Origin: Prevotella sp.
GTDB lineage: Bacteria; Bacteroidota; Bacteroidia; Bacteroidales; Bacteroidaceae
Direction: 5' to 3'
DNA length: 61,751 nucleotides
NCBI GenBank assembly: GCA_017483185.1
Contig: JAFULM010000036.1
Span: forward strand, 1 to 61,751
The translations under genes were made by a program, and so were the position numbers. Positions within the stretch are counted from its first letter, which is position 1, and every line of letters begins with the position of its first letter. This document shows, one piece after another, positions 18,309 to 33,304 of this stretch. The notes beneath the pieces are model-generated. The model was given only the letters and a program-made list of their open reading frames with translations, was not told the origin of the DNA and did no database searches.

Positions 18309-19520
18309 TCACAGCGAACTGAGTATGATGTGGTTGGCACGGTCGACCACCGACGTGTCGAGTGAGGCGAGATATATGCGCGTGGTGGTCTCCGAGTCGT
18401 GGCCCATCGCCTCGCTGATGGTGGCCAGGGGGATGTTTTTGCTCCGTGCGATGCTGGCCCATCCGTGACGCGCGACGTATGTGGTGAGCGGGATGTCGAG
18501 ATTGATGCGTCGGCCGATGCTCTTCAGTTTGATGTTGACAAAGTGTGCCACGTTCTTATACTGTCGCCGGCCGTCCCGTCCGATGTCCCTGATGATGGGC
18601 AGGATGTAGGGCGAGGCCGTCGTGTCATATTTGTCCACGATGTCCTGCATCGGTTTTTCCCACTTGATTGTCAGCAGCTGGTTGGTCTTTCGCCGCCGGT
18701 AGGAGAGGATGCCGTTGTGGAGGTCTTTCTTCTGGAGGAAAGCCATGTCGACGAAGGACATGCCACGGGTGTAGAATGAGAACATGAACATGTCGCGGGC
18801 GTAGTCCAGTGCGGGGCTATCCGTGAGATCCATGTCGCGTATGCGGCGTATCACGCGCAGTGGGACGGCTCGCTTGACGGTCTTGTCGACGCCGGTGTAG
18901 ACGTGGCGGAAGGGGTGGTTCTGGACGGTCAGTTCACGTTCGACGGCACGGTTGTAGATGGCTCTGAGGTTGCGCATATAGTAGGATGACGAGTTCGGAC
19001 ACAGTCCGCCGGCCCTCAGCCACACTTCATACGCCTGCATCAGGTCGGAGTCGAAGTCGGCCAAGGCGACGTCCCGACGGTCGTCGAGAAAACGGAGGAA
19101 ACTGCTTATTGTCGTCGCGTAGGCAGTGCTTATGCTGGTCCGTCCTATCCCCGACAGATGGGCGATGAGGGTGCGGGCGAAAGCGACAAAACCGACGTCG
19201 TTCCGTGCCGTCCCGAAGAGGGCGACAATGCCGTCGGCGTCGTAGTTGCGCCCGCTGCCCTCGATTCTGGTGACGATGGCCTGCAGCCGTGACAGGTCGT
19301 TTCGCAGATCGGTCTCCAGCGCCTCGAGATAGCGGTGACGGACGTTGTCGGTGGCGGATGTGACGTCAACTCTGCCCTGCGCGCAGTCCCATTCGTGAGT
19401 GAAGAGGCGGTAGCCGGTGTTGATCTGCCGTGCGATTCGTCTGTGGATGATTTGAAAAAACAGTGTCCCCTCCCGTCCCTTGACGGTGGACGGACGATAC
19501 TTAACTTTGATTGTAGCCAT
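18309..19520 (-). CDS. tyrosine recombinase, DNA-invertase type
   Basis: 403 residues. A SAM-like N-terminal DNA-binding region (~105-210) is followed by the catalytic domain with Arg252 (FYTRGMSFVDMAFL), Lys278 (RRRKTNQ), Arg351/His352 (YVARHGWAS), His374 (GHDSETTTRIY) and nucleophile Tyr383. The first His of the usual HxxR is a Tyr here. TRGMSFVDMA is typical of the Bacteroidales Tsr/Mpi-like recombinases that invert promoters and of element integrases. It lies downstream of, and in the same direction as, a pilus operon whose upstream region has two inverted-repeat-bounded segments, so it is the best candidate to flip them. It might instead be the integrase of the neighbouring island. Confidence 0.9.
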   Translation of the reverse strand: MATIKVKYRPSTVKGREGTLFFQIIHRRIARQINTGYRLFTHEWDCAQGRVDVTSATDNVRHRYLEALETDLRNDLSRLQAIVTRIEGSGRNYDADGIVALFGTARNDVGFVAFARTLIAHLSGIGRTSISTAYATTISSFLRFLDDRRDVALADFDSDLMQAYEVWLRAGGLCPNSSSYYMRNLRAIYNRAVERELTVQNHPFRHVYTGVDKTVKRAVPLRVIRRIRDMDLTDSPALDYARDMFMFSFYTRGMSFVDMAFLQKKDLHNGILSYRRRKTNQLLTIKWEKPMQDIVDKYDTTASPYILPIIRDIGRDGRRQYKNVAHFVNIKLKSIGRRINLDIPLTTYVARHGWASIARSKNIPLATISEAMGHDSETTTRIYLASLDTSVVDRANHIILSSL

Positions 19521-19710
19521 ATAAATACTAAATAAATGATTGTGTTAAGGGCCGCAATTTAGTTTATATGCAAATTCTAAAAGAGAAATTGACTGACAAA
19601 ATCGTCGGACAAGAACAAATATTTTTCTCCGGACGGGGGAGAAATGCATCCGGTAAGACGAATTTTAAAACGCAAAGACGGATTTAAAACAAAAAGACAA
19701 TTCGGAATTT

Positions 19711-19791
19711 AAAACGCAAAGACCGCAAAGACGCAAAGGTTTTACCGCAGTACTATGATATCATCTTTGCGTCTTTGCGGTCTTTGCGTTT
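19711..19791. repeat. ACGCAAAGACGC-type hairpin (family R3)
   Basis: AAACGCAAAGACCGCAAAG and its complement CTTTGCGGTCTTTGCGTTT flank a ~33-nt loop. The same arms recur at 35608 and 51905 with different loops. It sits between the recombinase and the fimbrial operon end and abuts the R2 palindrome. Confidence 0.8.
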
Positions 19792-19796
19792 ATATA

Positions 19797-19949
19797 TAAC
19801 ATCCGAAAGTAGGGTCGCGACCCGTCGCGACCGCCTCCATGCCACATAAGCAACCGTCTAACCGACCATATATATGTCAACCAAACAAATCAAATCAAGA
19901 GGCTCGGAGGCGGTTGCGACGAGTCGCGACCCTACTTTCGGATGTTATA
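19797..19949. repeat. GTCGCGAC long palindrome (family R2)
   Basis: ATCCGAAAGTAGGGTCGCGA with CCCGTCGCGACCGCCTCC pairs with the complement ending at 19949; arms are ~45 bp around a ~60-nt loop. It overlaps the last two codons' surroundings of the thioredoxin-like gene (stop near 19945). Further copies are at 33056, 44557 and 53635. Confidence 0.8.
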
Positions 19950-20961: not shown

Positions 20962-23900
20962 TCATCGTCTGGCGTTGCTCTTGCGACGTACGGGCTGGCG
21001 CCGCGGTTTGGCCGCAGTCTTTTGTGAGACAATCGCCGAGTAGGACTTGTTGGCTTCCCCTTCGGTCAGGTCGCGCACGCACCGCAGACCGTTCAGCGTT
21101 TTGGCAGGGGCTGTAGCAATCTTATCGGACGCGTTGACCGTGACCATCCGGTAGTTCCAGCTCAGAGGAAGCGACGAGCTGCCCGGTGTGCCAAAGTTGG
21201 CCCAATGTTCCTGAGTGCATGTCGCATAAAGCGAACCGGAGAGCAAGCCCATTCGCATGATGATGATGATCTCCTTCTGGTTGGGCACACGCCATCCGGT
21301 CCTGCCGGTCTCGGTCACCAGCTTCTGGCAGAACGTGTTGTTGATGATTGCGTTCGAATAGCTTGCATATGAAGTACCGCTGTTTGACGGTGTCACCGTA
21401 TTCTGATTCAATTTCGGCACCTCTTCCGCACTGTTGTCGGAGAAGTTGTTTCCTCTGGGCGCGATTTCAAAACCGTAACGCGCCATACGGTTGTACGCAT
21501 CGCTGGACTTGTGCATTGGCAGCGGGGCTGTCTGCGGTTCACGCAGCGAGGCACCGTAATAGCGATGCACCTTCACGACGCCGCCATACGTCGTTGGATC
21601 GTGCTCTGTGAGATAGGCGGGGGTGACTTTCTCTCCTTTTGTAACGGTCGTGAGGTTTGTGCCGAGATTTCTTATGCAGCGCACCTGCCAGGGCGCGTGT
21701 GACCAGTCTTTTCCTTCATAAAACATGCTGCTGGACGCGCCCTCGTCAACCCAGATAATCTTGTTGTCACTTGAGGCAAAGTGATACAGCGTGTTGGCAT
21801 CGCCGCTACATCCGGCCGGAAGGGTCAGCTGGTCGTAATTCATGAGCGGTGTCCTAAGACTGTTGCGTCCGATGATGACACGCAGATATTTTCCTGCGGC
21901 CGGGACGTACCATTTCAGCTCCTCATTGTCGATTATGCCGTTCCCGTTTTCGTCCTTGTTGCGGTTCATACATGCGCTAAGTGCATGTATATACTGCGCA
22001 TTGGAACCGTTCTGGGGATCAAAATCCTTGTCGCCCGGACCATTATACTTTCCGGAAATACCCGTCAGTGAACCTGAGGCTATCTGGACGGTCTTTGGCA
22101 CGGAAGTGGTGCGCGCGGCAGTTGGAATGTGATAGGCGAGGGCGGTCTGCTTCGTATTGTTGATTGCGTTGATGTTCTGAAGGCTTGTCAAATCGACAAC
22201 AGTTTTCCATTCGACTTTGCTTTTTCCTCCACCATAGCCGAGATAGACATTGTAGCGTCCGTTGTCGGAATCCAAGCCCGTCACTTCAGAGGGCCATCTC
22301 AGATTCATTCCGAACACCTCGTTGTCGTGCTCAATCCCGAGGGCGGTGACCTTCTCGTCGCTGCCGATGCCGGACAGATTGTAGTATGTCTGTATGGATT
22401 CCTGCGACAGGGCGTATTTTGACTTATAGTATATGCAGCCTTTGTCGGATGACTCCTGCAGGTCGACATTGAACTGGGCGATGCGGTTGGGCTGGTTGAC
22501 ATAGCCTATCCACCTGTTGCCCTCCTCATTTCCGTAGCCGGTCTCTCCATATTCGGCCTCGTAGGTGTATTCTTTCACATAGACTGTAAAGCCCTGACCG
22601 CTCTTGCCGTTTGTCAGAGTGCTCTTCTGGTCGGCAAGGTCTTTCAGATAATAGAGTCTGCCATTATAGTCTGCCGGCTTCGGAAACGCGGCCAAAGCGG
22701 CTGTGCTGAGGTCGGAGGTCGCCGTGATGTTGTCGTTGCGCACAAACTGTACCCAGCCGTAATACTTCCAGTTCGGGTCTGTGTGTCTGTCGTCCGTATC
22801 GTGCGGCTCATTGATATTGTTAGGGTTGCCCTTTCCGAAATACTTGATTTCGTAGGGAACATTGTTCTCGTATGTGCGAATGAGGAAATTGAACTTGTCC
22901 AATTGTTCTTTTGTGAAATAGATGTTGAACACATTGAAGTGGCAGTCAAGATTGAAGAACGTTTCCGTAACGTCGTTGACTTCACCCTCCGCCCCGGGCT
23001 GGTTCTCGCCATTTCTGAAGGCCTCCACAATGACATTGTTCACACTCTTCACCTTTATATTATAAGTATATCGGGCATTGCGGTAGCAGTTGAAGTCATT
23101 GGCATCTTTACCGATATAGCCGAGATGTACGACGTATGTGACCAAAGCCGTACGGTTCGTCACGTCCGAGAAGTCACCGTCGACGCCGTCAATATTGTCG
23201 CCCGGCTTGTTCCTGTAAGTAATGTTGGCCCTGAAGCGGAGATATGTGGCATAGTTGTTCAACGTCAGTCTGCCGTCGGGACACAAGGCCGTATATATGC
23301 CTGTATCAAGATTGGAGTCATCTTTCTTCTCCAACTCGCGCTTTGCGTATGCTTTATCCCCCGTGGCGTCGGCTATATGCCCCGTGCGCTTGTTCTCATA
23401 CTGCCAGAAGCTGTATGAATAGAGCGTCTTGGTAATTTCTTTCCCATCGACGGTCTCTTTGGTTGTGGTGACATCCATCGACGCCGGGGTTATCGTGAGT
23501 GAGGTCCAATATGTCGGATGGCGTTCGGCGGGTGACGAAGGCAGTTCTGGTGACACGGCGTCGCCGGCATTTGCATATTCCAAGACGCGGTTGACGCTGG
23601 CGTCCGCTCCCTGTTCGCGGCCTTGAATCCAAGTGTATTCGGGAATATTGACGAGTTCCATGTCCAAAAGTTCCAGAGCGATGTCATTGCCGTCGGGCTG
23701 GATGTTGATTGTGTTCTGTGTCCAAAGGCGGCGCAAATGTATCCGTCCGGACAAGGTCTGATTGCCGGGCTGGATGATGACTGTCTCAGGATTGTCGTCA
23801 TTGGGTGTGCCGCTATGGCCGGATGCGCGATAAGAACCATGCATGACAAGGCCTTGAGACAGACCTGCCGTGGGAGCGTCGACAACGGCGTAGTCATGGA

Positions 23901-24381
23901 AGTTCTGCTTTACGGCAAGCGAACGGAACTTGTCCCACGTGTCCGCCTGGTCCAAATGTTCCTTGATGTTGACCTCTTCCCTGGAGTTGGCGCCTTTGAT
24001 CTTGATGGCCATGTTGTTCTGACAGTTTGCCACTGCCACTATATAGCTTTCCCCCGATTGGGTGTCGAGTTTTACGGAACCTGTCGTCGGTTCCGGATAA
24101 TCAAAGGTCTTGTCGTTGGTGATGAACGTATACCCCGTACGTTTGCCGCTATTGACATTATAGACACCTATCCACAAGTCATTGACACGATTTTCCAAAT
24201 CCGAACTTATGTCGGAACGGGTCAGCCGCTCCATTCCGCTCAAATCCACCTGAAGGCTGATCGTGGCTTGTTCTCCTTCGGGGACGGCTTCCATAGCGAA
24301 GTCATCATTGCAGCCAAACAGACAAGACAAAAGCAGCAATGCGCACCAAACCGCATGATTTTTCAACGACAGTATTCTCAT
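20962..24381 (-). CDS. DUF4906 fimbrial tip-like lipoprotein
   Basis: 1139 residues from ATG 24381 (MRILSLKNHAVWCALLLLSCLFGC), which gives a clean lipoprotein signal and an 11-nt gap; the ATG at 24438 would overlap the upstream gene. The body is a large beta-rich protein: an N-terminal fimbrillin-like domain (QATISLQVDLSGMERLTRS...VNDLWIGVYN), then DUF4906-like middle parts. Near the C-terminus is a region with GWRVPNQKEIIIIMRMG and LNGLRCVRDL of the kind seen in FISUMP/tip adhesins. In Mfa-type pili a large terminal gene in this place encodes the tip component. Adhesive function is inferred. Confidence 0.8.
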   Translation of the reverse strand: MRILSLKNHAVWCALLLLSCLFGCNDDFAMEAVPEGEQATISLQVDLSGMERLTRSDISSDLENRVNDLWIGVYNVNSGKRTGYTFITNDKTFDYPEPTTGSVKLDTQSGESYIVAVANCQNNMAIKIKGANSREEVNIKEHLDQADTWDKFRSLAVKQNFHDYAVVDAPTAGLSQGLVMHGSYRASGHSGTPNDDNPETVIIQPGNQTLSGRIHLRRLWTQNTINIQPDGNDIALELLDMELVNIPEYTWIQGREQGADASVNRVLEYANAGDAVSPELPSSPAERHPTYWTSLTITPASMDVTTTKETVDGKEITKTLYSYSFWQYENKRTGHIADATGDKAYAKRELEKKDDSNLDTGIYTALCPDGRLTLNNYATYLRFRANITYRNKPGDNIDGVDGDFSDVTNRTALVTYVVHLGYIGKDANDFNCYRNARYTYNIKVKSVNNVIVEAFRNGENQPGAEGEVNDVTETFFNLDCHFNVFNIYFTKEQLDKFNFLIRTYENNVPYEIKYFGKGNPNNINEPHDTDDRHTDPNWKYYGWVQFVRNDNITATSDLSTAALAAFPKPADYNGRLYYLKDLADQKSTLTNGKSGQGFTVYVKEYTYEAEYGETGYGNEEGNRWIGYVNQPNRIAQFNVDLQESSDKGCIYYKSKYALSQESIQTYYNLSGIGSDEKVTALGIEHDNEVFGMNLRWPSEVTGLDSDNGRYNVYLGYGGGKSKVEWKTVVDLTSLQNINAINNTKQTALAYHIPTAARTTSVPKTVQIASGSLTGISGKYNGPGDKDFDPQNGSNAQYIHALSACMNRNKDENGNGIIDNEELKWYVPAAGKYLRVIIGRNSLRTPLMNYDQLTLPAGCSGDANTLYHFASSDNKIIWVDEGASSSMFYEGKDWSHAPWQVRCIRNLGTNLTTVTKGEKVTPAYLTEHDPTTYGGVVKVHRYYGASLREPQTAPLPMHKSSDAYNRMARYGFEIAPRGNNFSDNSAEEVPKLNQNTVTPSNSGTSYASYSNAIINNTFCQKLVTETGRTGWRVPNQKEIIIIMRMGLLSGSLYATCTQEHWANFGTPGSSSLPLSWNYRMVTVNASDKIATAPAKTLNGLRCVRDLTEGEANKSYSAIVSQKTAAKPRRQPVRRKSNARR

Positions 24382-24392
24382 CACCTTGTTGT

Positions 24393-25574
24393 TTATTCGA
24401 ATGAAGGTATTTCTATTGTATATTCTAACCACGGACAAACCGTGTAAGTCAACGTTATTGTATTTCCCTGAATGAGCGCGACGTCCACCACAACGTGTGT
24501 ATTGCGGAACAACGCTCTCAGATTGTCAAACGCCTCGCCCGAGAATGTCTTCGTGTAAGTTTCGCCTCTCTGTGTATACTCGAACGTGATGTCCATCGTA
24601 TATGACTGTTCGCCGTATGGGTCAGCCGCGTTGATCAGGTTCTTGCTTTCGGGCAGATACAAGTAGAACTCTGCTTCTCCCGGCGTGCTGTTATTGTATT
24701 TTGGCACAGTGAAGGAAGCCGGAGTTATATCTCTTTTCGCTTGTACCGCCGTCCCGGGGATATCGTAGTCGTTGATCCATCCGCGCCAATCCGCCAATGT
24801 CTTGTCATCCGGATATTGCAGCGTCTCGTCCGACACCTTTTTCAGCCAGTCCACCCAATAGAGACTGGTCTTGCTGCCGTCGTTCTCCAGAAACAGAAGC
24901 GGCGTGCCGGGGTTCTGCTTGTGGGGCATCAGATACATACGGTCCGCTATGTTGCTCACCGTCAATCCGGTCACTTTCATGTCGTAGCTCCACAAGTTCT
25001 TGAAGCGGAACGTGAACTTGGTGGCAGCGCGTACCAGATAGTATTGACACTCTATACGGTTAGTGCCGGTGCCAATCTCTATCTCATATACCGAGCTCAT
25101 GGGGATGGGAGTGTCTTGGGCAAATACCGGCACGAAATGGAAATCGTCCACGGCGGCCTTAAACCCTGCCATTCCCGACGTATAGACGTCCAAATCGGGC
25201 AGGCCGTTCACGCTTTTCTCATTAGCCAGCAGATAGATGGTCTTCTTCTCGCGGTTCTTTACCTTAAATATCTGTGTGTTATATTCCGTCTGCCCACTTT
25301 CGAAATCAATGAACTTATTGTGTTCCACCGTACCGTCGGGATGCAAGATAACGATGCGCAGAGTTTTCATCTTTTCGTTGTCCGGCACGTCGGCCACTCC
25401 CGCACGTGTCATGCCGATGACGTCTGTATTCAATACGAGCGTGACCATATCTTCTTCCGTGAACACCGCTTCGTCGTCCATGAAGACCGTATCGCCACCA
25501 CGGCCACAAGCAGACAGCATCAAAAGACATGCTATCGAAGCCAATGACAATATGTGTCGTATTGTACAGTACAT
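24393..25574 (-). CDS. Mfa-like fimbrillin accessory lipoprotein
   Basis: 393 residues. The signal MYCTIRHILSLASIACLLMLSAC ends in a lipobox. The N-terminal domain (EEDMVTLVLNTDVIGMTRAG, KMKTLRIVILHPDGTVEHNKF, YLLANEKSVNGL) is the fimbrillin beta-sandwich with the TRAG-type cleavage segment. The C-terminus ends in an ITLTYTVCPW donor-like strand. It is placed after the anchor gene, as FimC/Mfa3-type accessory subunits are. Confidence 0.75.
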   Translation of the reverse strand: MYCTIRHILSLASIACLLMLSACGRGGDTVFMDDEAVFTEEDMVTLVLNTDVIGMTRAGVADVPDNEKMKTLRIVILHPDGTVEHNKFIDFESGQTEYNTQIFKVKNREKKTIYLLANEKSVNGLPDLDVYTSGMAGFKAAVDDFHFVPVFAQDTPIPMSSVYEIEIGTGTNRIECQYYLVRAATKFTFRFKNLWSYDMKVTGLTVSNIADRMYLMPHKQNPGTPLLFLENDGSKTSLYWVDWLKKVSDETLQYPDDKTLADWRGWINDYDIPGTAVQAKRDITPASFTVPKYNNSTPGEAEFYLYLPESKNLINAADPYGEQSYTMDITFEYTQRGETYTKTFSGEAFDNLRALFRNTHVVVDVALIQGNTITLTYTVCPWLEYTIEIPSFE

Positions 25575-25689: not shown

Positions 25690-26766
25690 TCATCCGCCCA
25701 CGTCAACGTTGTTGACGACAAGTCGCCATGAGAGGATGTTTATCACAGTGCTTACCCACTTGTTGTCTTTATCAAGGATGAGCGTCATGTTATATTCGTC
25801 GGCTCTGTCCAAGTATTCCTGATCGCCCATTTCCTCAAGATGCTTGCCTTTGACCATCAAGGCATAGTCTATCACCGGCAGGGACACTACCGTTTTGCCG
25901 CTTTCGACGGCGCGTATCTTCAGCATGGGCTTGGCAAATTGCGTCCAGTCCCGTGCAAACAGACGGTTGGTCGTCATCTCTGCGACCACGGCCTTGACGT
26001 TGGTGATGGCGCGTGTCGTAGCGTCGGCATGTGTCTTGGCTTCGCTTTCGTCGGAACCGACACCGGCTTCCACCGGATAGACAGCCCACGGGCGATAGAC
26101 GACTGGAGCCTCCATGAGCATGGAGTTGTCATAAGCCAGCCATCCGTTGTTGTCCTCAATACTGAATTCAAAGTCGTCGGGATTGATGTCCTCGCCCGAC
26201 AGATGTTGCAACACGACGCGGAACACGTTGGTGTCCTTCGTCAGTCGCATAGTGTAGATATAGTCTTCACCATCGTCGCTGTCCGGCAGCACGACGTCCA
26301 TCATGCCGTGGAACAGCGGTTGCAGATCCTTGTCCGAACGGAAAGGCTGCTGTTGTGTTGCCGTCACGCCGCTGATGCGGCAGTTCAGGTCTTCTATGTC
26401 TTCCGCCTTGTCGGCGTCAGGCAGCGTGAAAGTCTCTCCTTCTCCCAGTCCGCACCAGGCCACCAGACGGTATTTGCCCGGAGCGAGAGACAAGGTCATG
26501 GCATAATCATCAGACGCGAGAGCCGCTCCCCGTTCGGATGACGTCCACACCAGCTTCCCCTCTTCGTCGAACGCATAGAGACTCACCGACTTCACCTCGT
26601 TGGCGAAGGCATCGGCAAACTTCAGGTTCATGTCGTAGCGGAACTTCAAGCGGTAAGTGACCGTGCAATCGCCCTCATCGTCATAGACAAGGCTGTCGCA
26701 CGACGTTATCAGAAACAGTGCTGTCAACACCATTATCATCTGTCTGATATTATGCAATATATTCAT
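25690..26766 (-). CDS. FimB/Mfa2-family fimbrial anchor
   Basis: 358 residues. SPII signal MNILHNIRQMIMVLTALFLITSC; then CTVTYRLKFRYDMNLKFADAFANEVKSVSLYAFD, the signature of the FimB/Mfa2 domain, and a C-terminal INILSWRLVVNNVDV. In type V pili this protein caps the pilus base and anchors it to the outer membrane, limiting length. It follows the major subunit gene after 157 nt that contain a stem-loop. Confidence 0.9.
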   Translation of the reverse strand: MNILHNIRQMIMVLTALFLITSCDSLVYDDEGDCTVTYRLKFRYDMNLKFADAFANEVKSVSLYAFDEEGKLVWTSSERGAALASDDYAMTLSLAPGKYRLVAWCGLGEGETFTLPDADKAEDIEDLNCRISGVTATQQQPFRSDKDLQPLFHGMMDVVLPDSDDGEDYIYTMRLTKDTNVFRVVLQHLSGEDINPDDFEFSIEDNNGWLAYDNSMLMEAPVVYRPWAVYPVEAGVGSDESEAKTHADATTRAITNVKAVVAEMTTNRLFARDWTQFAKPMLKIRAVESGKTVVSLPVIDYALMVKGKHLEEMGDQEYLDRADEYNMTLILDKDNKWVSTVINILSWRLVVNNVDVGG

Positions 26767-26923: not shown

Positions 26924-28696
26924 TTACCACTCCAGACTTACGTCCTGCTTGACGATACGCCAAGAGAGGATGTTGATCTGAGCGGCGATATACGTGTCGA
27001 CGTTCTCCGGATGCTGGGGAACGATGACCTCTGTTGGATCAAGCACCGGAGTACCCATTCCTTTGACAGACGTGAGGTTGATGTCATAGACATGGTTGCG
27101 GACCACGCCGTACTTACCCTTTGCATCGTCAGCGCCGAAGTGCTCGATGTCAGTATAGTAATAGGTCCTGCCTTCATGCCAAACCTTCGTACCAGGCAGT
27201 GATTTCAGCATGTTGTTTACGTCTGTCGTATTCAATGCGTTTCCTTCCTCATCATAATATGTCTTTGACTCTGCGGTAGAAGTCAGCTGCAAATAACTAA
27301 AGTATCTCGGACTTGTCTCGCTGGCATCATCGGCGGCACCGGCCTTAGTCGCAGTAACAAATTCTACATCAGATGCCGGTATTTGGGTTGTCTTGGCAGC
27401 ATCCGTATATATTTTACTTGGCAGGAATCCCAGAATAGTAGCCTTCGCTCCGTCCTCTTTATAATATGCACCACCAAAGTTAACCAGTCCCAATGCCGTA
27501 GCCACACCTCCGTCGACAGTCACCAGAGTAGCTGCGATGATAGCCTGAGTACGGTTAGTGATTGTTGTCTTCGGGTCGTAGACAGTCTTTGAACCGTCCG
27601 CAGCGCCGGCGTCACCGGCGTTCTCAAGGCAGTAGACACGTCCCGTCTTGAAGTCCTGACCAATTTCATTATATTTGAAATGCTTTATGGTCGTATTGGT
27701 GACACCGGCTGTGTTCTCTGCCCAGTAAGAACGGAGACCAGGACTATTCCAACCTGTGAACAGACCGTTCCATGCTGTTGTGCTACCCACCTTCTTGATC
27801 AGATATGATTCGGGAGCGGTGCCTGTGACATCCCATTTGTTGAAGATGACATACAGTTGTTTGTTCGTGCCATCGACATTGACGGTGACGTAGTTGGCGC
27901 CATCCTTCAGCTTCACCGCCTTAACGGTTTCACCTCCGAACGTCACGCTTTCCGTCTCAATGCTCTCGTTCCAGTTTATGTCCATTTTGACCTTGGCGAC
28001 CACGCGCTCGATATAGATGTTGACAGGGTTGGCTTCGGCTGCTTCCTTGGTGTTGCAGAGATTGCCCGGCTCAATGTTTACGGCCGTAACCTGTCCGTCG
28101 GCGCCGGCATAAGAAGAGCTTGTCATGAGAAAGTTGTCGCCGGTCGTAACTTCGTCTACGGTTTGGGAGATGTTGCTGTAATCACCGATTATGGCACAGA
28201 GGTCTGCAAGAGACTTGGGGGCGTCTCCAAGAGCGGCTACATCATGATTTGCGACAGCAACGATCTTCTTCACATTGATGTTGTCACCAGTCTTGGTGTT
28301 GATCACGATTGTCGCCTTGATAATCTTCTCCACATTCGGCATGTTGTCTCCCGCGGGAATGATGTCTTGAGCGTCGAAAAAATTCTTGTTGTTATTAACA
28401 GCGGCAGTCGCATTCACTGTAATGGGGGCGCCGTTGTCGTCGAAGAAGTAGAAACGGAGGTTGTTTATCTTGTTCTCGTCGTCAGTGCCTTTTTCATTGC
28501 CTCCGTCTGTAACTGCTTTTGTCCCTGCGGGATTAACAATCTGAACCGTCATAAAACGGCTGCCTTCTGTGATGTCACCGGTCTCTACACCCGGGCCGGA
28601 ACCTGTCTCGGCCACGTCATCATCACTGCTCGAGCATGCGTAGAACGATGTGCATGCGAAAGCGAGCAACGTCAGGAATAACTTGTTCTTTTTCAT
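26924..28696 (-). CDS. Mfa1-family major fimbrial subunit
   Basis: 590 residues. The lipoprotein signal MKKNKLFLTLLAFACTSFYAC is followed by an acidic linker and NPAGTKAVTDGG, where FimA/Mfa1 pilins are cut after a basic residue to free the donor groove. The protein continues with two transthyretin-like beta domains (KINNLRFYFFDDNGAPI, VYIERVVAKVKMDINW) and ends AAQINILSWRIVKQDVSLEW, the donor-strand end typical of Mfa1. It is exported as a lipoprotein, processed at the surface and polymerised by strand exchange. It is the third gene of the operon. No RgpB-like protease is in the window. Confidence 0.9.
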   Translation of the reverse strand: MKKNKLFLTLLAFACTSFYACSSSDDDVAETGSGPGVETGDITEGSRFMTVQIVNPAGTKAVTDGGNEKGTDDENKINNLRFYFFDDNGAPITVNATAAVNNNKNFFDAQDIIPAGDNMPNVEKIIKATIVINTKTGDNINVKKIVAVANHDVAALGDAPKSLADLCAIIGDYSNISQTVDEVTTGDNFLMTSSSYAGADGQVTAVNIEPGNLCNTKEAAEANPVNIYIERVVAKVKMDINWNESIETESVTFGGETVKAVKLKDGANYVTVNVDGTNKQLYVIFNKWDVTGTAPESYLIKKVGSTTAWNGLFTGWNSPGLRSYWAENTAGVTNTTIKHFKYNEIGQDFKTGRVYCLENAGDAGAADGSKTVYDPKTTITNRTQAIIAATLVTVDGGVATALGLVNFGGAYYKEDGAKATILGFLPSKIYTDAAKTTQIPASDVEFVTATKAGAADDASETSPRYFSYLQLTSTAESKTYYDEEGNALNTTDVNNMLKSLPGTKVWHEGRTYYYTDIEHFGADDAKGKYGVVRNHVYDINLTSVKGMGTPVLDPTEVIVPQHPENVDTYIAAQINILSWRIVKQDVSLEW

Positions 28697-28807: not shown

Positions 28808-30235
28808 TCAGTCGTTTCTCCTCCGTCCTTCGTCGAGCTGACGCAGTGTCACTGCGGCCTGATCCAGTCCGAGTGCGGCGGCCTCTGAAAGGAATTTGCG
28901 TGCAGCGGTCAGGTCGTCACGGCGTATGGCCAAGGCTCCGCGGGCATAGACAGCCTCGGCCGAACTGCCCGCACGGTCGAGATAGCGTGCGGCAGCCTCG
29001 AGGTCGTCACGTCGGATGGCGGCGTTGGCGGCATTGAGATTGGCGACGCTGTCCGTCGGGAACATGCGGACGGCGGTCTCAAAGACTTCGGTGAATTCGT
29101 CCGTGCCCGGCTCACACTCCTGTGCGACGAGGTAGAACTCGTTTTGCGCGAGCTTTTGCGGTTGCGTCTTCATCACGCGGCGTATCTCATCTATGTCGCT
29201 GTACGAGCGTATGGTGTAGGCGATGCGGTAGTCCGTGTGGCGCAACGCCGGATAGAAGTGTTGCAGCATGAAGCGATAGTCTTCCGGATATGTACGCTTA
29301 ATTTTCGCCTCCTTGGCGTCAGGCTCCATGTCGCTGTCTATCAGAGAGAGGATGGCCTCGCGGTTGGCGATGTTTGACCGGTCGACATATCGGCGCAGCC
29401 CGGCCCAGTCTTCCGGCTCCGAGTCGGTCGTGATGACGCCGTCGGCGAAGTGGTAGAGCTGCTGTATGTGAGCCTTGAGCGCTGCCGTACGTCCGCGGGC
29501 AAGGTCACGGTTGTGGGCATAAGGGCTTTCCGGCGAAGCGTAACCCTTGAGCCAGACGTTGGTGATGGTGATGTCGCGGTCGGAACGGACGGAGTCGATC
29601 GTGGCCTCTATCTTGCCGAGTTCGACGGTGTTGCGCCGGTAGTCGGGACGTATCTCCGTGCGGTTGACGGGGAAGTCGACGAACGCCGAGCCTTCGAGCG
29701 AGTCGCGCTTCTGGGCGTCGGCCTGCGGCCGGATGTAGACGAGGGCCGGGAAGAAGTCGCCGTAGTGGCGACCAAGGAGTCCGTCGGCCTCGTCGACGAT
29801 GGTGTTGCAGCAGCCATAGTCCTCGCGGTGGAGCGAGACGGAGGCTCCCTCCATCCACTTCTCGTAGGGCACGAGAGCGTGATAGGCGACGGTGTCGGGC
29901 ATGTCTTTGGCGCGATAGTCGGTACCGTCGGAGCCGGTGAGCCGGTTTTCGGCGTTGCGCTGATAGTAGTAGTAACGGCGACGGCCATAGACGGCCACGG
30001 AGGGCAGCTGCATGGAGTCACGTCCGGCGACGATGCGCGGCGTGAGCAGCATGGCACGGTTGGAGCTGACGTTGACCTCGGCCAGACGCAGGGTCATGTC
30101 GACGGACATATAGTCACCGTTGCGTTTGGTCTGCAGTCCGTCGACCCCGACGCCCCCGACGGTGGTCTGCGCCACAGCCGGCATGGCCGTAGCGGCCGCG
30201 GCTGCCATCAAGAGTATGATATGCTTTGTCTTCAT
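28808..30235 (-). CDS. DUF3868 protein with OmpA-like and repeat regions
   Basis: 475 residues, signal peptide MKTKHIILLMAAAAATAMPAVAQ. An N-terminal DUF3868 part (DYMSVDMTLRLAEVNVSSNRAMLLTPRIV) leads to a periplasmic OmpA/peptidoglycan-binding-like segment (ITNVWLKGYASPESPYAHNRDLARGR). C-terminal TPR-like helices follow (AANAAIRRDDLEAAARYLDRAG, ALAIRRDDLTAARKFLSEAA). DUF3575-DUF3868 pairs precede Mfa1 genes in many Bacteroidales and are thought to form an outer-membrane/cell-wall platform for the pilus. Confidence 0.85.
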   Translation of the reverse strand: MKTKHIILLMAAAAATAMPAVAQTTVGGVGVDGLQTKRNGDYMSVDMTLRLAEVNVSSNRAMLLTPRIVAGRDSMQLPSVAVYGRRRYYYYQRNAENRLTGSDGTDYRAKDMPDTVAYHALVPYEKWMEGASVSLHREDYGCCNTIVDEADGLLGRHYGDFFPALVYIRPQADAQKRDSLEGSAFVDFPVNRTEIRPDYRRNTVELGKIEATIDSVRSDRDITITNVWLKGYASPESPYAHNRDLARGRTAALKAHIQQLYHFADGVITTDSEPEDWAGLRRYVDRSNIANREAILSLIDSDMEPDAKEAKIKRTYPEDYRFMLQHFYPALRHTDYRIAYTIRSYSDIDEIRRVMKTQPQKLAQNEFYLVAQECEPGTDEFTEVFETAVRMFPTDSVANLNAANAAIRRDDLEAAARYLDRAGSSAEAVYARGALAIRRDDLTAARKFLSEAAALGLDQAAVTLRQLDEGRRRND

Positions 30236-30249
30236 CGCGTTTCTTCGTT

Positions 30250-30834
30250 TTAGAACAGATATACTAAGTTGATTGCGGCCTTGGTCGGTCCGACATAGTG
30301 GTGGCTGCGTCCTGTCTCGGTCTTCTTGCCGCAGCCGGCGCAGCGGAAGCGGTCATAACGGGTATAGGAATAGCCGAGGCCTATCTCACCTTCGAGATTC
30401 CAGTGACGACCGAGCACCCAGGCATAGCCGTAGGCGACGCCGGCGCCGACAAACCACCCCTGATAGCGGGTGTCGGCGAGCTTGCGCGCGTCGGTGCCGA
30501 AGAGGTTGACACGGCCGTCGAAACCGCCGATATTGAACTGTCCGCCGTGGGCGTGCAGACCGACAAAGTGGCCACCGAAGCGGTCGCAGAACCAATAGCG
30601 TGCCTCTGGCTGCAAGGCCCAATGTTTCCAACGCCGGTCGTGCGAAAGGTCCCATGCGTTCAGCTGTCCCGTGACATCCAGCGTCCAGCGTGGTGCAAGT
30701 CCGATCTCGACACCGACATTCGGATTGAGCAACACGTCGGAGAGGAGATTGCTCTTGACCGCAATATCCTGTGCACTGACAGAACCGAGGGCTCCCGCCA
30801 AGGTTGTCACCAGATATAAGATAATCCTTTTCAT
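30250..30834 (-). CDS. DUF3575 outer-membrane protein, first gene of the pilus operon
   Basis: 194 residues, signal MKRIILYLVTTLAGALGSVSA. The DUF3575 beta-barrel pattern is clear: IAVKSNLLSDVLLNPNVGVEIGLAPRWTLDV, RRWKHWALQPEARYWFC, FVGLHAHGGQFNIGG. It ends 14 nt before the DUF3868 gene. No TAnnTTTG box lies between this ATG and the first inverted repeat at 30879-30894, so transcription must come from further upstream, through the invertible region. Confidence 0.88.
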   Translation of the reverse strand: MKRIILYLVTTLAGALGSVSAQDIAVKSNLLSDVLLNPNVGVEIGLAPRWTLDVTGQLNAWDLSHDRRWKHWALQPEARYWFCDRFGGHFVGLHAHGGQFNIGGFDGRVNLFGTDARKLADTRYQGWFVGAGVAYGYAWVLGRHWNLEGEIGLGYSYTRYDRFRCAGCGKKTETGRSHHYVGPTKAAINLVYLF

Positions 30835-30878: not shown

Positions 30879-31093
30879 TCTCTTACCAAGAGAAAGTCCG
30901 CAAAGCAAAATTGTCACTCATGACGTTGCCTGTCAGTGAGTTCTGACATACCTGAGTGTGTGCTCCTGTTGTGCGAATGTTACAGAATGACATCGCAAAC
31001 CATACGGCGAATCCGAACTGGTGCCCCAACAGGGTTGTCTGTAATAAGACACAACGGAAATCACAGTCGCCAAAAACTTCTCTTGGTAAGAGA
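30879..31093. repeat. putative invertible segment A
   Basis: Perfect 16-bp inverted repeats bound 215 bp: TCTCTTACCAAGAGAA (30879-30894) and TTCTCTTGGTAAGAGA (31078-31093). Each repeat is itself a near-palindrome, TTCTCTT and AAGAGA around a 3-nt core (ACC/GGT), the form expected of a tyrosine-recombinase crossover site. No convincing promoter is seen inside on either strand. The interior reads open on the minus strand for ~70 codons. Confidence 0.7.
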
Positions 31094-31132
31094 TGCACTC
31101 AGTCAACCGTCACTTCCGTCACACATATCTAT

Positions 31133-31225
31133 TCATTCATCATATCCACCTCCAAGCACCAGACCTCTGTCGTCATAACTCGGACGGTTGCTCTCGACCA
31201 CTTTCTTTCTAATCAACATTTTCAT
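31133..31225 (-). CDS. possible 30-residue small protein between the two invertible segments
   Basis: ATG at 31225, stop at 31133. The peptide starts MKMLIRKKVVESNRPSYDD and ends GGGYDE: a basic first half, an acidic/Gly second half. It lies on the leader of the pilus transcript driven by the promoter in segment B. No homologue is recalled with certainty; it may be a leader peptide. Confidence 0.4.
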   Translation of the reverse strand: MKMLIRKKVVESNRPSYDDRGLVLGGGYDE

Positions 31226-31264
31226 TAGCGAACACCGCGGCGTTTGTCACCGCTATCCGCCTCT

Positions 31265-31466
31265 TTCTCTTTATAAGAGAGAGTTTATTTTGGCAAAGAT
31301 AAAATAATTATAGATAACAACAGTATCGTTTGTTATTAAAAATTTACAAAAAAGAAAAAAAGTTGAGCGAAATCAATAAGTGTCAAACAAACATTCTATC
31401 CATTTCCGTCATAAAGTACTGCCGCCAAGATGGTTGTACGCCTCTGTCTCTCTCTTATAAAGAGAA
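31265..31466. repeat. putative invertible segment B carrying the pilus promoter
   Basis: Perfect 19-bp inverted repeats bound 202 bp: TTCTCTTTATAAGAGAGAG (31265-31283) and its complement (31448-31466). Half-sites TTCTCTT/AAGAGA equal those of segment A, but the core is TAT instead of GGT. A minus-strand promoter sits inside, just within the left repeat, and faces the pilus operon. Confidence 0.75.
31294..31320 (-). promoter_or_regulatory. promoter inside invertible segment B, now facing the pilus operon
   Basis: Minus strand TATCTTTG (31301-31294) matches the -7 consensus exactly; TTG (31320-31318) lies 16 nt upstream. Predicted transcription starts near 31288, before the left repeat, and proceeds leftward. 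Inversion would point it to gene-free DNA. Confidence 0.65.
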
Positions 31467-31582
31467 GTATCGAAACACGGAAAACTATTCAACGGTTTTT
31501 GTAACATCTTTACTTTTGTCAATAAACGACATGTAAAAAATATGTGATCGTTTAAGAAAATGTGCCTTTTCCCTTGCTGCGG

Positions 31583-31947
31583 CAGAGATGCGGTTGATGC
31601 GCGAAACAGCCAACAGACAAGCAGAAGAACACTGGGAAAACACTGGGAGGGCAGGCTTCCAGCCTGCCAAAATCCTCATCGTTCATATTGATAATATTAT
31701 TTTATTAAGTAAGTATTCATTATTACTTTATAATAAGTTTTCCGAACACAGAGACACGGAGACACAGAGGACAATAGAACTCTGTGTCTCCGTGTCTCTG
31801 TGTTCAAAATATAAACTAATTGTTGCAACATACTTATTGTTGGCAGGCTGGAAGCCTGCCCTCCCAGTGTTCTCCCAGTATTATTCCAGTGTTCTCCCGC
31901 TTGTCTGTTGGCTGTTTCGCGCATCAACCGCATCTCTGCCGCCAAGT
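31583..31947. repeat. inverted duplication of a gene fragment around an R4 element
   Basis: The stretch 31583-31677 (codes MRLMRETANRQAEEHW on the plus strand) recurs in reverse at 31843-31947 (same peptide on the minus strand, preceded by LHSKEQVTDMLNALHDLAAE). Both end in a GGCAGGCTGGAAGCCTGCC palindrome. Between them lies the R4 element (31705-31837). This looks like a degraded small gene duplicated in inverted form. Confidence 0.6.
31705..31837 (+). repeat. ACACAGAGACACGG element, copy 1 (family R4)
   Basis: Contains GAACACAGAGACACGGAGAC and its complement as a hairpin, flanked by TAAGTAAGTATTCATTATTAC on the left and CTAATTGTTGCAACATACTT on the right. The whole ~133 bp recurs in opposite orientation at 59202-59335. 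Confidence 0.8.
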
Positions 31948-32064: not shown

Positions 32065-32460
32065 GGAACGGAAATGTTAAAAACTCGGAATTATCACAAC
32101 AAAAAGCCTCGATTTTAACATAAATTCTGCAGCGAGTCGTCCCTCGGTCTCAAATATGCGAGTTTTGCGCGTGCATCTTTTTCTCCCTGAGTCACAATGT
32201 GTTACGGCAGGAATCGACAAAATGTGCAACTTTTTCACCGTTTTTCCCATACCGTAAGGGCCCCGCGGGGTTGCAACGGGGCGCTCGTTGCATCACGACG
32301 GCGTGCCCGTTGCAAGACAATAAGCATGCCGTTGCGACCCCGCGGGGCCCTTACGGCAAGGCCACGGAATTTTTTTCGTCGGAAAATGGCCGCCGAATGT
32401 TAAAATCGGAGCGTCACCGCCGTTTTTTTCGAGCGTTTTTCGTGTGTTAAATTTTTGATA
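32065..32460. repeat. GC-rich dispersed repeat, full copy (family R1)
   Basis: The left block has TTAAAA...CTCGGAATTAT and TATGCGAGTTTTGCGCGTGC. The core is CCGTAAGGGCC (32252) to GGGGCCCTTACGG (32344-32356) with GTTGCAACGGG, CGTTGCATCACGAC and CCGTTGCA motifs. The right block has TTTTTTTCGAGCG and CGTGTGTTAAATTT. Near-complete copies lie at 43866-44255 and 53218-53590. Confidence 0.75.
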
Positions 32461-32955: not shown

Positions 32956-33055
32956 CAAAAATGTAGCTGTTATTCAAAAAAAACGGCAGAAAATTGATGC
33001 AAATCAAGCGTTGTGTGCGCACACAGTCGTTATTTTTCCGACATTTGGAATGAAT

Positions 33056-33165
33056 GGTAGGGTCGCGACCGCCTCGTGGTCAATATGTAACCGCCCATGT
33101 ATATAACCCAACGAACGATTAAATCAGTTGGCACCGAGGCGGTCGCGACGGGTCGCGACCCTACC
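33056..33165. repeat. GTCGCGAC palindrome with a 10-bp arm deletion (family R2)
   Basis: The left arm reads GGTAGGGTCGCGACCGCCTC while the right arm keeps GAGGCGGTCGCGACGGGTCG and CGACCCTACC. The left has lost one of two GTCGCGAC units plus the spacer, as by slippage between direct repeats. Downstream (33180-33300) is a Gly-palindrome CCCTCCCTTCGGGAGGG and GGGTGTTAGGTGG tandem repeats. Confidence 0.8.
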
Positions 33166-33304
33166 ATGCCACTCCAAATAAATGTGTACAGAGAATGTAT
33201 CCCGAAGGGAGGTACTTGAATGTCTTAACGCATATCAAGCTCCCTCCCTTCGGGAGGGTTGGGGTGGGTGTTAGGTGGCTGTTAGGGATGGGTGTTAGGT
33301 GGTA

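Follow-up and report, generated by a model that had tools for sequence, protein, structure and literature searches.

In Bacteroides fragilis, the single tyrosine recombinase BF2766/Tsr19 flips two invertible promoters (IVp-I and IVp-II), giving four states, and a larger number of repeats between the promoter and the gene goes with lower expression (PMC4747536). Doubled repeats have also been described for the switches of this species (PMC3090145). IP-ARG-2 of the Bacteroidales comprises a pair of neighbouring invertible regions whose inverted repeats are similar, with different promoters and one proposed invertase (PMC8748976). The recombinase RecV of C. difficile flips a number of elements located ahead of different genes (PMC7241687), and a switch read through Rho has been reported in C. 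difficile (PMC7446863). Fimbrillin genes near invertons have been reported as well (PMC11892184).

The locus described here lies in the window, i.e., the whole stretch of 61,751 nucleotides of Prevotella sp. DNA that was analyzed. Like the BF2766/Tsr19 switches, it has a TAnnTTTG box and more than one repeat between the promoter and the gene (PMC4747536, PMC3090145); unlike here, the two B. fragilis promoters lie far apart and drive different operons, and the extra repeats are part of one switch. Two adjacent regions with like repeats, here called segments A and B, are shared with IP-ARG-2. However, IP-ARG-2 is reported with promoters in both regions, lies directly behind the invertase gene, and has other cargo (PMC8748976), whereas no promoter was recognized in A and the recombinase gene is 11.4 kb off. 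RecV of C. difficile is a possible parallel for A, should A act in the leader, though it belongs to another phylum and is another enzyme. The view that a tandem switch ahead of a Mfa-type operon would be unusual is weakened by the tandem invertible promoters already in print (PMC8748976), and it keeps some ground in that two pairs with different cores were found at no other locus scanned for sites and promoters.

Two mirrored site pairs ahead of a pilus operon

A repeat search of the window returned segments A and B with the coordinates and letters given in the original prediction. The four sites form two inverted pairs, A (30879-31093) and B (31265-31466), upstream of a Mfa1-type pilus operon (Table 1). 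The arms are 16 nt each in A and 19 nt each in B, both pairs being 100% complementary, and all four contain the exact 15-mer TCTCTT-NNN-AAGAGA with the plus-strand cores ACC, GGT, TAT, and ATA. As the operon is encoded on the minus strand and reads leftward, A is the segment nearer to the genes and B the distal one, which corrects the layout proposed before. The near arm of A covers the positions 45-60 bp ahead of the first start codon (30834), and the whole of A falls within the leader of ~430 nt that runs from B to the first gene.

Table 1. Positions of the sites, promoter boxes, and genes in the window.
Feature	Position	Strand	Details
Tyrosine recombinase, proposed enzyme for A and B	18309..19520	minus	403 aa; PF13102, PF00589, PF17293; full-length frame
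Two more ORFs in the same direction	20962..25574	minus	393 aa (24393-25574), 1158 aa (20962-24438)
Mfa2-type anchor protein	25690..26766	minus	PF08842, E 3.3e-61
Mfa1 family fimbria major subunit	26924..28696	minus	NF038041, 170 bits, cut-off 130; PF15495
DUF3868 protein	28808..30235	minus	PF12984
DUF3575 protein, first operon gene	30250..30834	minus	PF12099, E 1.1e-72
Segment A, gene-proximal site	30879..30894	.	TCTCTT-ACC-AAGAGA(A)
Segment A, interior	30895..31077	.	GC 0.47
CAATTTTG, one letter off the TAnnTTTG -7 box	30906..30913	minus	20 bp from the gene-proximal site of A, facing the operon
Segment A, distal site	31078..31093	.	(T)TCTCTT-GGT-AAGAGA, mirrors the gene-proximal site of A
Segment B, gene-proximal site	31265..31283	.	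TCTCTT-TAT-AAGAGA with flank
TATCTTTG, Bacteroidota -7 promoter box in B	31294..31301	minus	21 bp from site, facing the pilus operon
Segment B, distal site	31448..31466	.	TCTCTT-ATA-AAGAGA with flank

The major subunit and the anchor mark the operon as a Mfa1-type (type V) pilus operon. No match was obtained for the 393-aa and 1158-aa ORFs in Pfam at E <= 0.001. Since no TAnnTTTG box was found on the coding strand in the operon intergenic gaps tested, transcription from upstream is the simplest reading.

The box in B is directed at the operon, i.e., the B promoter is ON as assembled. It reads outward near one end of the segment, and its profile score of 15.0 bits was reached by none of 2000 shuffles. 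Among 37 other invertons, TAnnTTTG stood 20-24 bp from a site in 30, compared with 0.7% in shuffles. This set leaves out A and B themselves, duplicates, and pairs spaced by less than 120 bp; exact mirrors with at most two mismatches to the consensus were required, so that mirror symmetry is there by construction, and some pairs have a site in common (L031, L072). The sites of B are short and quasi-palindromic, with mirrored cores, and form an inverted pair spaced within roughly 150-500 bp. Judged by its sequence, B is a standard Bacteroidales Tsr-type promoter inverton, and A has the mirrored site pair of this type of element.

The 2.47-Mb assembly to which the window belongs (75% complete) contains seven exact TCTCTT-NNN-AAGAGA sites, four of them within these 588 bp, and one match to the reversed control pattern. 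The exact two-site pattern with unconstrained cores was present in 9 of 393 genomes of the order, our own included, with no control matches. Chance palindromes were therefore rejected as the origin of the sites. The three remaining exact sites of the genome are each found no more than 141 bp from where a contig ends (C29, 7-21; C42, 127-141; C51, 74 bp before the end). An identical stretch of 89 letters, present on both C42 and C51, includes a TACCTTTG box and stops exactly at the site end; beyond it, the two contigs diverge into two different glycosyltransferase genes. This is likely one inverton caught in both orientations by short-read assembly, or it may be two loci sharing one promoter sequence; in either case, the break is evidence on the site family, not on A or B. 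Elsewhere in the genome, an inverton-like stretch (C4:70147-70347; L023 4148-4347) has the broken sites TCTCTC-TAT-AAGAGA and TCTCTT-ATA-GAAAGA, with a TATTTTTG box between them facing the next gene. Long inverted repeats (71 nt, 93%; 55 nt, 76%) occur in the window at 31579-31942 and 32247-32361, and similar DNA on contigs C4, C14, and C19 makes them part of a dispersed repeat family.

Among 48 DUF3575 relatives, 13 likewise carried a TCTCTT-type pair ahead of the gene, as exact mirrors in 10 and with one arm mismatch in 3. The 48 relatives came from named genomes, mostly Bacteroidales, and for 11 of them the sequence available upstream was shorter than 500 bp. The contig ended within 351 bp upstream of the DUF3575 match in 9/48 and within 80 bp after it in 3/48; inverting DNA could cause the upstream breaks, and so could other repeats. 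The promoter box at the site faces away from the gene in L030, L032, and L040, faces it in L031, L050, and L072, and stands at either end in L033, L038, and L063. Three sites with one core each lie upstream of DUF3575 in L031, L032, and L072, which would allow two inversion sizes with the same promoter. B. faecalis (L029) has a layout comparable to that of the window, in which an inverton at -431/-235 is accompanied by a single third site, of the different core CGC, at -68.

The four sites in the window thus look like recombination sites, as the same sites bound ~200-bp promoter invertons in other Bacteroidales. The invertible-segment anatomy that had been proposed is supported; the inversion of A and of B itself is inferred.

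The recombinase and its relatives

The recombinase gene is situated beyond the pilus genes, 11.4 kb from the A and B sites, and follows a gene for a DUF5106/AhpC-TSA protein, located 3' of the pilus genes, after 424 bp. In this gap, no TAnnTTTG promoter of its own was found, and a single terminator-like hairpin was not above the shuffled mean. Repeats of the GTCGCGACC type occur in the gap (19521-19944) and again upstream of the switch region (33054-33167). A 2.6-kb search upstream of B for a recombinase remnant gave short matches only (best E 0.041). The positions of Arg, Lys, Arg-His, His, and Tyr, which we take to be the catalytic residues, agree in 18 aligned sequences, namely the window enzyme and 17 relatives.

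The window enzyme is 59-63% identical to the recombinases encoded directly upstream of TCTCTT-type invertons in seven recombinase-inverton-DUF3575 cassettes (L029, L032, L033, L034, L040, L044, and L072) from Bacteroides, Xylanibacter, Sanguibacteroides, Butyricimonas, and a Muribaculaceae MAG. These cassettes resemble the window in half-sites, recombinase, and first operon gene, but they have one inverton, a recombinase directly upstream, and no second pair with another core; the extra site seen in some of them has the same core in L032 and L072 and is partial in L033. In contrast, the identity is only 32-34% to the recombinases of three Rikenellaceae loci with another half-site (L035, L036, and L039). 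Upstream of DUF3575, these three loci carry doubled repeats with a TCGCTATG-TTTAGCGAA-type half-site.

In a tree of 48 proteins, from which L093 (short) and L083 (internal stop) had been dropped, the window enzyme was placed in a nine-row clade (100/99) with those seven and L078, and L079 was its sister (98/92). A TCTCTT-type inverton lies just downstream of the recombinase gene in all nine relatives, with exact mirror pairs in six and an arm mismatch in three (L029, L044, and L079). Seven of the nine had been fetched via DUF3575, so their selection is tied to the pilus context. The recombinase search supplied L078 and L079; the former also adjoins DUF3575, and the stretch of L079 examined contained no such gene. 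The presence of an exact pair nearby changed 9 times on the 48-row tree, compared with a mean of 12.3 in shuffles (10 of 500 as low), i.e., the clustering is only modest.

A second tree of 28 chosen rows added the closest enzymes, those of genomes G520 (75% identical) and G689 (73%), which joined the window enzyme as a 100/99 group within the same clade, now of 11 rows (100/99). Eight of the ten other clade members examined adjoin a TCTCTT-type inverton. The exceptions are G520 and G689, in which the recombinase is encoded on another contig than the switch, without a site nearby. Each of these two genomes has one inverton (gap 151-181 pattern) upstream of DUF3575, at -457/-622 and -466/-631, respectively, where B lies in the window. 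As the enzyme gene and the switch are apart in these relatives too, the gene has probably moved away from the switch in this small group and works at a distance.

When 60 genomes of the genus were searched, an exact pair within 1 kb was present in 7. All 7 belong to the 16 genomes in which the recombinase search gave a match at E <= 1e-60 (hypergeometric 3e-5, relatedness ignored); 9 of the 16 had no exact pair, several of these having only a partial match. The proposal of one recombinase for these sites is supported in the sense that a single tyrosine recombinase clade accompanies TCTCTT-type sites, and its membership of this site-linked clade makes the window enzyme the putative cognate recombinase of B. 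It is the likely enzyme of the locus, and we infer that it acts on both A and B.

Core sequences and exchange between A and B

The original prediction held that the differing cores bar exchange between A and B. The scan of the order genomes, which covered our own genome, gave 20 two-site matches; the cores of 19 were taken from it and those of the 20th, on contig C27 of genome G063, from a scan of that genome. Mirrored cores were found in 18 of the 20; the exceptions were the neighbouring A-right and B-left sites and the G063 pair. A looser pattern, restricted to gaps of 151-181, gave 24 matches in 17 of 25 recombinase-bearing genus genomes (own genome again included), 23 of them mirrored, and the sole unmirrored match was again that of the A/B neighbours. 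Partners thus have matching cores, in support of the core rule: different cores should stop exchange between A and B and let the two segments flip separately. In the G063 pair (C27:16318-16522), two exact sites have the same core, AAT/AAT, in the same direction, and this pair should delete rather than invert. The G063 genome has 19 exact sites.

Private cores enforced genome-wide were not supported. Cores coincided in 3 of 32 comparisons within genomes versus 52 of 1003 between genomes, and 92% of the shuffles gave as few or fewer. This comparison covered 46 invertons in 18 core classes, collected by hand, with unpaired sites and the G063 C27 pair excluded. The core of B also occurs at the C42 and C51 sites of the same genome. 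As coincidence within genomes is not below that between genomes and the B core is common to C42 and C51, the difference between the cores of A and B needs no special cause. The extra sites in L031, L032, and L072 retain the core of their partner, in contrast to A versus B. It is unlikely that A and B are recent duplicates of each other, as their cores differ and so does their interior GC (0.47 vs 0.31).

The nature of segment A

In the scans made, the interior of A gave no sigma-70-like, TAnnTTTG, or terminator-like match on either strand. Its GC content exceeds that of all 37 other invertons (0.19-0.45). The best full-profile score in A was -8.5 bits (p 0.16 against shuffles), lower than that of any of the 37 others under leave-one-out scoring (-7.2 to 26.7), i.e., A lacks the internal promoter of a Tsr-type promoter inverton. 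The near box CAATTTTG is weak evidence, as an equally good box appears in about 6% of A shuffles and the full promoter profile is unmet. The C/G make-up is near symmetric, and the predicted folding energies of the leader with A in its two orientations are nearly equal (-153.7 and -152.9 kcal/mol). With no recognisable promoter or terminator found, A presents intact sites and no visible cargo. The four promoter-region states of the original prediction are only partly supported, as a promoter was recognisable in B and not in A.

The exact mirrored sites suggest that A is, or was until recently, invertible. The decayed sites at C4:70147-70347 look broken, and the perfect sites of A therefore argue for recent use. 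The near site of A is at -59 from the gene. Of the 13 pair-bearing relatives, five (L030, L032, L034, L040, and L072) have their gene-proximal site at -49 to -69 and eight at -112 to -312, some of these distances being counted from the match start instead of the start codon. No A-type site is present in the G520 and G689 leaders of similar length (442 and 451 nt). These two leaders and the eight relatives with the near site further out weigh against the history proposed for A below. A search for A-like DNA in 398 genus genomes, in which two first-look candidates were scored per genome, gave a single match reaching into A, 23 letters in G027 that overlap the site.

We consider it probable that A and B are two separate cassettes of one family, on both of which the Tsr-like tyrosine recombinase would act from its distance of 11.4 kb. 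B would be the promoter switch, and A is most likely a promoter inverton that has lost its function or much of its strength and has stayed behind in the leader. The phase-variation promoter of B would drive the Mfa1-type operon as assembled, and a flip would turn the operon off; A would add a further pair of sites, independent of B and nearer to the first gene, and the differing cores should allow both segments to flip without exchange. The evidence for a decayed promoter in A is the one near -7 box, with its chance rate of about 6%.

The main rival to this former- or weak-promoter reading is that A is a working, promoter-free invertible 5' leader that tunes how much of the B transcript reaches the operon (by attenuation, RNA folding, or translation), so that B and A would act in series, as on/off and high/low. 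The position of A entirely between the B promoter and the first gene fits this, as do its perfectly mirrored sites of exact consensus, compared with the broken sites elsewhere in the same genome, and precedents exist in B. fragilis, where expression is lower with repeats lying between the promoter and the gene (PMC4747536), and in the Rho-read switch reported for C. difficile (PMC7446863). The absence of a terminator-like site on either strand of A, the near equality of the two predicted folding energies, and the near-symmetric C/G content speak against it, and we regard it as doubtful, if credible. The Rho-read C. difficile switch reportedly lies in the leader; in A, no orientation-dependent terminator was found in a scan for intrinsic ones on both strands. 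In its strongest form, one recombinase would serve two insulated serial switches, B as the promoter and A as the promoter-free leader, with the 3-bp cores as the sole insulation and off, low, and high output; we give this version little credence. It is similarly unlikely that A holds a second promoter outside the TAnnTTTG profile, dependent on another sigma factor or an activator, which would make both segments promoter switches. The near box has the canonical offset and direction, and the adjacent regions of IP-ARG-2 carry different promoters (PMC8748976), but A has no sigma-70-like or TAnnTTTG match on either strand and the most GC-rich interior of those compared.

The remaining alternative concerns the enzyme. 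Another recombinase, absent from the incomplete assembly or encoded elsewhere, could act on the sites, and the window's recombinase would then be a bystander. A second enzyme could be missing from an assembly of 75% completeness; PF00589 matches occur at eight other places of the genome, of which one scored below the cut-off, and the distance of 11.4 kb sets the window recombinase apart from the clade members other than G520 and G689. On the other hand, the only match to the window enzyme in its own genome at E <= 1e-60 is itself, its clade is associated with TCTCTT-type sites, and the Rikenellaceae loci with different half-sites have enzymes of only 32-34% identity. We consider it very unlikely that another enzyme is responsible and retain the window recombinase as the proposed enzyme.

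The half-site letters had no match in the open-licence literature, which is weak evidence. To our knowledge, the pairing of the TCTCTT-type half-site with a recombinase clade at pilus operons is new to this literature, as is a tandem with one member without a recognisable promoter. Together, the site code TCTCTT-N3-AAGAGA, with its free but mirrored core, and the recombinase clade make the switch and its enzyme matchable from sequence. As a relic, A would represent a promoter inverton whose sites have outlasted it. Should A work, a single operon would have two orientation bits under one enzyme, separated by three base pairs, and the locus would be a simple natural case for testing core-dependent insulation.
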